This document shows positions 10,731 through 12,423 of a DNA stretch of 44,571 bases, piece by piece. The stretch's first letter is position 1. Each line of letters starts with the position of its first letter. This DNA is from Sulfurimonas sp. (GTDB lineage Bacteria; Campylobacterota; Campylobacteria; Campylobacterales; Sulfurimonadaceae), in assembly GCA_013791885.1 (NCBI GenBank), contig VMSZ01000074.1, positions 1-44,571 of the forward strand, written 5' to 3'. Both the position numbers and the translations under genes were made by a program. Below the pieces are notes generated by a model that had not been told where the DNA came from, made no database searches, and saw only the letters and a list, made by a program, of their open reading frames with translations.

Positions 10731-11279
10731 CTATTCGTAAAAACTTCTTAATGCTCTAATGATTACAGCGTTTTTAGAGATACTTTCAGCCTTTGCATTT
10801 TCATTAACCGACTCATAAAGATCCAATGGAAGAGAGATTGAGAAAGTTTTAGTCTCAATTTTTTTCTTTTTAGCAATAATCGCAACTACATTTGTTAGAA
10901 GTTCAATTATTTTTTTAGTATCTATCGGTTTTTGAATAAAGCTGTTTACACCAACTTCAATTGACTCTGATATTTTTTCAATGTCATTACTTGCAGAGAT
11001 TACAATAATAATCTGACCTGGATTTTCTTCACGAATTTTACGCGAAAGTTCAATACCGTCCATTCCTGACATAATAATGTCAACAAAAACAACATCCGGT
11101 TTTGTTCTGTTAAAAACTTTTAGTGCTTCATCACCATTAAAGCATGAATGAACATCAGCAAAGAAGTTTTTAAAAGTTGAACTTAACAACTCATTGGTAA
11201 CTTTCTCATCTTCCACAATCATTGCAGTCAGTTTTTTTGTCTCTTGTGTAAGTTGTACTAAATCTATATTTGCCATCAT
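10731..11279 (-). CDS. Response regulator with receiver domain and C-terminal ribbon-helix-helix
   Basis: A 182-aa protein. Residues ~15-135 form a complete receiver domain: acidic pair Glu23/Asp24, phospho-acceptor Asp67 (VFVDIIM), Ser95 at the Thr/Ser switch and Lys117 (QKP). After a Lys-rich linker (137-144), residues ~145-182 look like a ribbon-helix-helix unit: strand TFSISLP, then two helices. This suggests phosphorylation-controlled DNA binding as a dimer, an uncommon output for response regulators. No histidine kinase is adjacent. Start may be 11279 or the next ATG at 11276; an AGGAAAA lies upstream. Confidence 0.8.
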   Translation of the reverse strand: MMANIDLVQLTQETKKLTAMIVEDEKVTNELLSSTFKNFFADVHSCFNGDEALKVFNRTKPDVVFVDIIMSGMDGIELSRKIREENPGQIIIVISASNDIEKISESIEVGVNSFIQKPIDTKKIIELLTNVVAIIAKKKKIETKTFSISLPLDLYESVNENAKAESISKNAVIIRALRSFYE

Positions 11280-11651: not shown

Positions 11652-11943
11652 GAACGGAATTCCTTCTAAATAACTATAAATAGTATTTGGTTAACATAAT
11701 GTAAATTCTATTGAAAATGATTGTCTCTCATTTAATAGATGAAACAATAGCACAATTTCAATGTAAAATTCTAGAAAAATACAATTGAGGATAGTTAAAA
11801 GATTCCTTTTGCACATTATGTAAGTGTAATGTAGTCTAAAAACATCTAATTAGGTGCTGATTTTTCTTTGTTTAGTCACTCTACGGACACAACTGTAAAT
11901 AAAAAGTTGATTTAATCCCAGAATATAGGGGTTAATGAGGGCT
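11652..11943. other. Intergenic stretch between the 68-aa gene and rnpB
   Basis: 292 AT-rich bases. Apart from the possible rnpB terminator at 11905-11935, I see no convincing ORF, RNA or repeat. Confidence 0.5.
11905..11935 (-). terminator. Possible rnpB terminator
   Basis: On the minus strand, TTAACCCC (from 11935-11928) can pair with GGGATTAA (11919-11912) with one internal mismatch. It is followed by ATCAACTTTTT. It lies just past the rnpB 3' end, but the stem is imperfect. Confidence 0.4.
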
Positions 11944-12268
11944 AGGTACAACTATAAGCCGAGTTTTGTCTAGATAGCATTAATCTACTGTACCATTTAC
12001 ATAGTACCTCTAGCGAAACAATAGCAATGTAAGACGCTAACCATTTGTTTCTTGCTGCCATGTTGGGTTTTCAAGCTCTCTATATTGCTATAAAGACTGG
12101 TGGTCTCTTACACCGCCTTTTCACCTTTACTACTTAAAAAAGCAGAAGTCTAATCTCTGTTGCACTTTCCCTCGTATTGCTACGGCCATTCGTTAAATGG
12201 AACACTGTCTTACAGCAGCTCGGACTTTCCTCTTGAATGTAAAACTCAAGTCACTATCTGTTGTACCT
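11944..12268 (-). ncRNA. rnpB: RNase P RNA (class A)
   Basis: This is the catalytic RNA of RNase P, which trims tRNA 5' leaders. Conserved blocks are present in order on the minus strand: AGAGGAAAGTCCGAGC (P4 5' side region), GAGGGAAAGTGCAACAGAGA, and near the 3' end ACAAAACTCGGCTTATAG. The ends were set by the P1 helix, where AGGTACAAC at the 5' end pairs perfectly with GTTGTACCT at the 3' end, giving about 325 nt. Any ORF called across it is spurious. Confidence 0.95.
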
Positions 12269-12273
12269 GCGAA

Positions 12274-12279: not shown

Positions 12280-12315
12280 CAAAAAGAATCCTTTATATAC
12301 TATTTTTTAAAACAA

Positions 12316-12423
12316 GAACAAGTGTTCACTTTATGTTTATAAAGTATGAACACTTGTTCTTATTCTTGTAAGCTAAAATTAACAAGTGTTCATATATAAT
12401 TTTATATACATTAACATATGTTC
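12316..12423. promoter_or_regulatory. Array of four operator-like palindromes with exact 32-bp period
   Basis: Four 12-bp inverted repeats of form (G/T)AAC-N4-GTTC lie at 12316-12327, 12348-12359, 12380-12391 and 12412-12423. The first three have cores AAGT, ACTT and AAGT; the fourth has ATAT. Centres are exactly 32 bp apart, about three helical turns, so all face the same side of the DNA. They fill the gap between the divergent rnpB and tetR promoters. The third lies just ahead of a TATAAT at 12395-12400 and the fourth just before the tetR ribosome binding site. The simplest reading is a cooperative operator array for the TetR protein. Confidence 0.75.
12395..12400 (+). promoter_or_regulatory. 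Putative -10 box of tetR, inside the operator array
   Basis: TATAAT between the third and fourth palindromes. It would start transcription near 12407, so repressor bound to either site would block tetR. The -35 region is weak. Confidence 0.5.

Follow-up and report, generated by a model that had tools for sequence, protein, structure and literature searches.

A helically phased operator array and its adjacent TetR-family gene accompany dif in several Campylobacterota families and may act at the chromosome terminus

In a Sulfurimonas sp. contig of 44,571 nucleotides (the whole of the stretch analysed, hereafter the window), four evenly spaced palindromes lie in the gap between the RNase P RNA gene rnpB and a divergently oriented tetR gene, raising the question of what such an array serves and to which of its neighbours it belongs. 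The features concerned, in window coordinates, are as follows.

11689–11716, minus strand: dif site of the XerCD type, 28/28 identical to the published Sulfurimonas denitrificans dif
11939–12269, minus strand: rnpB, class A RNase P RNA (Rfam RF00010, 223 bits), placed between dif and the array only in Sulfurimonadaceae, and in most of these
12316–12327, no strand assigned: operator site 1, GAACAAGTGTTC, which recurs in relatives
12348–12359, no strand assigned: operator site 2, GAACACTTGTTC
12380–12391, no strand assigned: operator site 3, TAACAAGTGTTC, immediately before the probable -10 of tetR
12395–12400, plus strand: probable tetR -10 element TATAAT, as read from the sequence
12412–12423, no strand assigned: operator site 4, TAACATATGTTC, between the probable -10 and the start codon
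12439–13056, plus strand: TetR-family protein of 205 aa (Pfam PF00440, TetR_N), the presumed binder of the array

The first-pass annotation described four (G/T)AAC-N4-GTTC palindromes between rnpB and tetR, with centres at 12321.5, 12353.5, 12385.5 and 12417.5 and three steps of exactly 32 bp, and this description proved correct. Judged by counts, single sites are only mildly enriched in the 44.6-kb window, where KAAC-N4-GTTC gives seven strand matches at five places against an expectation of 2.5, and three of 100 shuffles reach seven. The clustering of the palindromes exceeds chance: none of 400 first-order Markov simulations produced three equally spaced sites (steps of 13–59 bp) or packed more than two sites into 120 bp. 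Genome-wide, the 12-mer KAACANNTGTTM is present at 31 places, four of them in the array (15 for the reversed control), and pairs of KAACANNTGTTM-type cores are found in the array only. The annotation had also taken the sequence between the sites to be free, which is true only in part, as TATAAT abuts site 3 and the interval from site 2 to site 3 has a recurrent TAAG-like stretch. Comparison of relatives' sequences additionally shows that AT..AT flanks outside the 12-mer are often conserved.

Retention of the palindromes in relatives that keep tetR was the outcome on which the annotation had staked its reading, and such retention is what we observe. Using the strict pattern (G/T)AAC-N4-GTT(C/A) and 105 genomes for which protein and profile surveys gave both a tetR ortholog and the sequence of its locus, we found at least two sites upstream of tetR in 103 (four in 88, three in 13 and two in 2). 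The two genomes lacking sites are G274, whose tetR frame contains stop codons, and G332, in which the copy is displaced; array and gene are present together or absent together across genomes, with G332 the one clear exception besides the broken G274 frame. A second, partly overlapping set of 80 contigs gives a similar picture, with at least two sites in 79 and at least four in 70; one locus (L099) has a five-site array. The unit is far from universal in the class, and among 397 genomes of at least 97% completeness an ortholog is present in 71, representing 16 of 67 genera, with none at E≤1e-25 in the other 326.

The spacing of the sites varies among these genomes only by whole helical turns. 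The 290 steps shorter than 60 bp are of 21 (2 instances), 22 (12), 31 (29), 32 (178), 33 (14), 42 (32) and 43 bp (23), so that the three classes of 21–22, 31–33 and 42–43 bp correspond to two, three and four turns, and no half-turn step occurs among the 290. Two longer steps, of 63 and 87 bp, span a degenerate site, and 11 bp have been added between sites 1 and 2 in L089, L122 and, from the other set, L020. Three turns are the rule in most Sulfurimonadaceae (family f1), four in most of the Sulfurovum-type family f6, and two in three of four genomes of genus g18 in family f18. At a period of 10.5 bp the vector length is 0.96 over all steps (0.93 when each distinct value is counted once); no probability is attached to this phasing because the genomes are related. 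The proposal that protein is bound on one face of the DNA is strengthened by these natural changes of spacing, and cooperative binding to the array is plausible on the same grounds.

The encoded protein scores 55.6 bits against PF00440 (cut-off 24), placing it in the TetR/AcrR family, and its fold matches TetR structures over residues 9–205. The leading structure matches by Z are EthR entries (5mym_B, Z 18.4, rmsd 4.1, 193 residues aligned), although rows within 1 Z are to be regarded as tied. The fold is that of an ordinary TetR, similar to ligand-binding repressors, and none of the matches listed hints at a partner; RefZ and SlmA are absent among the structure matches listed, which excludes neither. 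Orthologs are 43–79% identical to the window protein (alignment A1), with 35 invariant columns, 15 of them in residues 13–59 and 20 in the effector domain (87–200), and per-residue conservation is higher in the DNA-binding domain than in the effector domain, as in any TetR. GAAC-N4-GTTC is also the LexA/SOS box of Gram-positive bacteria. The LexA model TIGR00498 exceeded its cut-off in none of six genomes, five of which gave weak, partial matches.

The placement of the array at the tetR promoter, as originally proposed, is supported by the position of the operators in or beside the core promoter. In the Sulfurimonas loci site 3 abuts TATAAT, and CATATATAAT after site 3 recurs in most of those compared; in the Sulfurovum-type (f6) and f10 loci a near-perfect promoter, TTGAC/TATAAT, has its spacer occupied by the last operator. 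A consensus promoter scan missed the tetR promoter, including its probable -10, TATAAT. With operators so placed, autorepression is the obvious reading, following the usual logic of TetR repressors: the four palindromes would be the operators of the adjacent TetR, whose dimers would line up next to one another along one face of the DNA at whole-turn steps and shut off their own promoter. Both the binding of the palindromes by TetR and the repression of its promoter are predictions from sequence.

As the array lies within ~200 bp of tetR, autorepression alone could explain it. The main rival to the terminus role proposed below is therefore a plain ligand-responsive autorepressor that happens to lie beside dif and may control a few genes through weaker single sites, a possibility we consider real although rather unlikely. 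It gains from the operators lying in the core promoter, with the last site filling the TTGAC–TATAAT spacer in Sulfurovum-type and f10 loci, and from the similarity of the fold to the ligand-binding EthR, FrrA and QacR. It accounts less readily for the arrays with 42-bp steps, in which the other three sites are ~42, 84 and 126 bp upstream of the promoter one. Nor is there another clear target. A genome-wide search for single sites had been proposed as a way to a regulon; of the 27 further places inspected 26 are over open frames of at least 80 codons, one of these (C53:47655) overlapping the start of its frame, and the sole site free of an open frame (C62:3389) is in a terminator-like stretch. 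In 14 genomes, three pairs of sites, all of them poor, were found away from the array. One contig, C51 of the window's genome (G000:C51, 63,974 bases), carries four of these 27 single sites, at 2379, 3823, 18777 and 37105, all inside frames.

The first-pass annotation raised the possibility that rnpB itself is regulated from the array. The layout appears to invite this, since rnpB is divergent and adjoins the array in 63 of 69 Sulfurimonadaceae genomes, with site 1 mostly 50–57 bp from the rnpB 5' end, but that distance varies from about 41 to 83 bp and the arrangement does not extend beyond the family. With a nucleotide profile built from Sulfurimonas, rnpB adjoined the array in 0 of 36 genomes of other families, three of which (G074, G270 and G444) have less than 450 bp of upstream sequence; Rfam likewise found no rnpB at the loci of 14 of these 36. 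Across 16 representative loci, 14 of them outside f1, Rfam identified a single rnpB, downstream of tetR in an f1 locus (L227). At least two sites are nevertheless kept in 35 of the 36 other-family genomes and in five of the six f1 genomes in which rnpB is not adjacent. As the sites persist in these 40 genomes, the array is independent of rnpB, and we reject regulation of rnpB as the reason for the array; that TetR controls rnpB from these sites seems to us very improbable, and the best explanation treats rnpB as a bystander. A conserved CCTTTA word (window 12290–12295), which reads TAAAGG on the rnpB strand and is unlike the usual -35, precedes the rnpB 5' end by ~21–26 bases and is at the same place in most Sulfurimonas loci compared. 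In genome G029, CRISPR-DR4 repeats (L071:3035–3543, minus strand) lie upstream of tetR and beyond rnpB.

The position of tetR on the chromosome points to a different neighbour. In 25 of 26 genomes with a measurable position (families f1, f4, f6 and f18, a few of them in two contigs) tetR is 46–55% of the way round from dnaA, the exception being G274 with its interrupted frame. This proximity to the half-way point drew attention to dif, the site at which chromosome dimers are resolved and one that the annotation had not included. The window dif lies just past rnpB, ~0.6 kb from the array, giving the order dif, rnpB, array, tetR. It is assigned on its 28/28 match to the S. denitrificans sequence in Tables 1 and 2 of PMC2731167 and on the position of orthologous loci opposite dnaA, and a whole-genome search with the dif pattern finds this one place only. 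In G031 the GC skew in 10-kb steps changes at tetR from mostly positive to mostly negative, with the cumulative peak 22 kb from tetR and not exactly at it.

To gauge the linkage we used an unbiased set of 58 genomes, in which at least 2.2 kb upstream of tetR was covered or the whole genome was searched. A dif of the XerCD or XerH type is located no more than 2.1 kb upstream of tetR in 46 (21 of f1, 16 of f6, 7 of f18 and 2 of f4), is 3.7–80 kb away in nine, and was not found in three (G049, G274 and G303). A larger count, 79 of 91, is biased towards matches, as short contigs entered it only where dif was seen, and the smaller set is used in its place. Among the 46 close cases the distance from dif to tetR ranges from 168 bp to 2.1 kb, and that from dif to the array from about 75 bp to more than 1 kb. 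No dif was seen downstream of tetR, many loci having less DNA covered downstream than upstream. Where both lie on one stretch (78 genomes) the orientation is constant in 68 of 68 classical dif sites and nine of ten difH sites (it is inverted in G109). In f4 and f18, difH is found without mismatch 168–256 bp from tetR, and beyond it a similar recombinase-type protein is encoded in all four XerH-type representatives, the one tested (L162) being a PF00589 tyrosine recombinase. Two dif positions published in PMC2731167 fall beside tetR as well: 1001399 in Nitratiruptor SB155-2, with tetR starting at 1001240 in G114, a genome of equal length, and 1186929 in Sulfurovum NBC37-1, with tetR starting at 1187719 in G330, likewise of equal length. 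Larger displacements occur in G375 and G450, in which dif is inverted and about 80 and 21 kb from tetR respectively, and in G332 (contig C69; L257, L261), which has an open tetR frame with no array 67 kb from dif and could be explained by rearrangement or by misassembly of the bin.

The survey started from tetR. Many relatives have dif but no tetR; in eight of these, at least 5.9 kb of sequence on the side where tetR would lie is free of operator sites. A ninth (G021, L273) also keeps dif and is excluded from this count, its contig ending on that side. Comparison of neighbours over ~6 kb upstream of tetR (4.0 kb for L147, 1.6 kb for L164) and 2.2 kb downstream showed that TetR is the only protein common to all 14 representative loci, from five families, with the next best shared by four and each of the next-best neighbours confined to one family or to the XerH-type families. 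A 2009 survey of dif states that the site lacks any evident gene context of its own, except for xerH beside many difH (PMC2731167). Within Sulfurimonadaceae, a protein with an unusual pairing of response regulator receiver and ribbon-helix-helix domains (PF00072 + PF01402) also stays near dif; it is encoded at 10731–11279 on the minus strand of the window, ~410 bp from dif, and a homolog is within ~4 kb of dif in seven of the nine tetR-less relatives.

If tetR encoded a plain autorepressor, its adjacency to dif would be old synteny, in a region that is rarely rearranged or whose low gene dosage suits the gene. Across families, however, tetR has no companion gene in the neighbourhood of dif, so that passive synteny would have to have spared tetR alone. 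In a tree built from 51 TetR proteins, every family represented by at least two rows falls on one side of a branch (weakly for f1, 86/73; f3 is a single genome on a long branch), and f18 and f4, both of the XerH type, sit nested among the XerCD-type families. From this we infer that the linkage to dif has outlived a change of the dif system itself.

Could the regulator instead have been left behind by an element that integrated at dif? Insertions there are suggested by one-armed dif remnants with a full dif further off, as in G262 (L228), where the two are 10.5 kb apart, and by one-armed remnants near tetR in L105, L120 and L127, for which a far dif was not seen. G087 has two dif-like sites (C9:136592 and 147250) 10.7 kb apart. 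Elements integrated at dif and lying between dif and tetR are probable in these five cases (L105, L120, L127, L228 and G087), but the inserted DNA is between dif and tetR and does not include tetR itself. The gene has moreover been inherited vertically over several families, with 43–79% identity to the window protein, and we give the relic explanation hardly any credence.

Proximity to dif raises the further possibility that the bound array is an accessory to Xer recombination, shaping the dif synapse or directing the reaction as ArgR and PepA do at cer. At classical dif sites the array faces what we take to be the XerC arm. The gap to the first site is ~75–120 bp for difH in f4 and f18 and ~77 bp for dif in L152–L154, a scale comparable with that of the accessory sequences at cer, which span ~180 bp (PMC5357621). 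Yet the distance varies widely, rnpB intervenes in most Sulfurimonas, the gene and array accompany two different recombinase systems, and relatives have dif without them, all of which leave the idea improbable. ColE1 cer with ArgR/PepA offers a parallel, in that a transcription regulator binds next to the Xer core, as TetR would here, but cer is a plasmid site with accessory sequences of set length (PMC5357621), whereas here the site is chromosomal and the fixed distance to the recombination core is not found, dif and tetR being 168 bp to 2.1 kb apart.

Other known systems offer partial parallels. RefZ of Bacillus subtilis is a TetR-family member, as is the window protein, and recognises near-palindromes at a conserved chromosome position, and an RBM placed between -35 and -10 allows it to repress (PMC6657595). 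RefZ has five dispersed single sites, two per arm and one near oriC, whereas here there is one tight array at dif; RefZ is the second-best NCBIfam match (residues 14–171), with 45.5 bits to NF037937 against a cut-off of 180, well outside the family. The nucleoid occlusion factor SlmA is also of the TetR family, but the window protein reaches only 31.7 bits to NF007015 (cut-off 120). SlmA sites are dispersed and avoid the terminus. MatP of Escherichia coli is a DNA-binding protein of the terminus region, as the candidate TetR would be, although it is not a TetR protein. Its matS repeats number 23 over 800 kb (PMC3330122), many dispersed sites as against one array of about four here. A MatP-like organiser with many terminus sites is not what we find, 400 kb around tetR in G031 containing the array and one further site. 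EthR, QacR and Tn10 TetR share the TetR fold of the window protein and have their operators, one or two, over their own promoter and beside the gene they control. We know of no autorepressor of this type that is tied to dif.

We therefore return to a role at the terminus. The tie of the unit is to dif, rather than to rnpB or any other gene seen, and such a role is the simplest reason for it. Gene and array would form one heritable unit, kept beside dif in several Campylobacterota families, and the bound array would constitute a nucleoprotein landmark, loosely comparable to RefZ or MatP on their respective sites, through which segregation, division or dimer resolution would be coupled to the dif region. 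That this is an autoregulated, dif-linked TetR-array module acting at the terminus, with rnpB a bystander, is a reading to which we give about an even chance. Among the literature matches listed, no paper describes a TetR protein next to dif, or this array. Somewhat more tentatively, a Campylobacterota terminus system not previously described may be represented here, in which a dedicated TetR has its only strong binding place in a phased array locked to dif and marks the region for segregation, division or dimer resolution, whether XerCD or XerH is the recombinase. The helical spacing of two, three or four turns constitutes a natural experiment on such an array, and a regulator gene and array that accompany dif across families and recombinase types point to an unstudied partner of the terminus.
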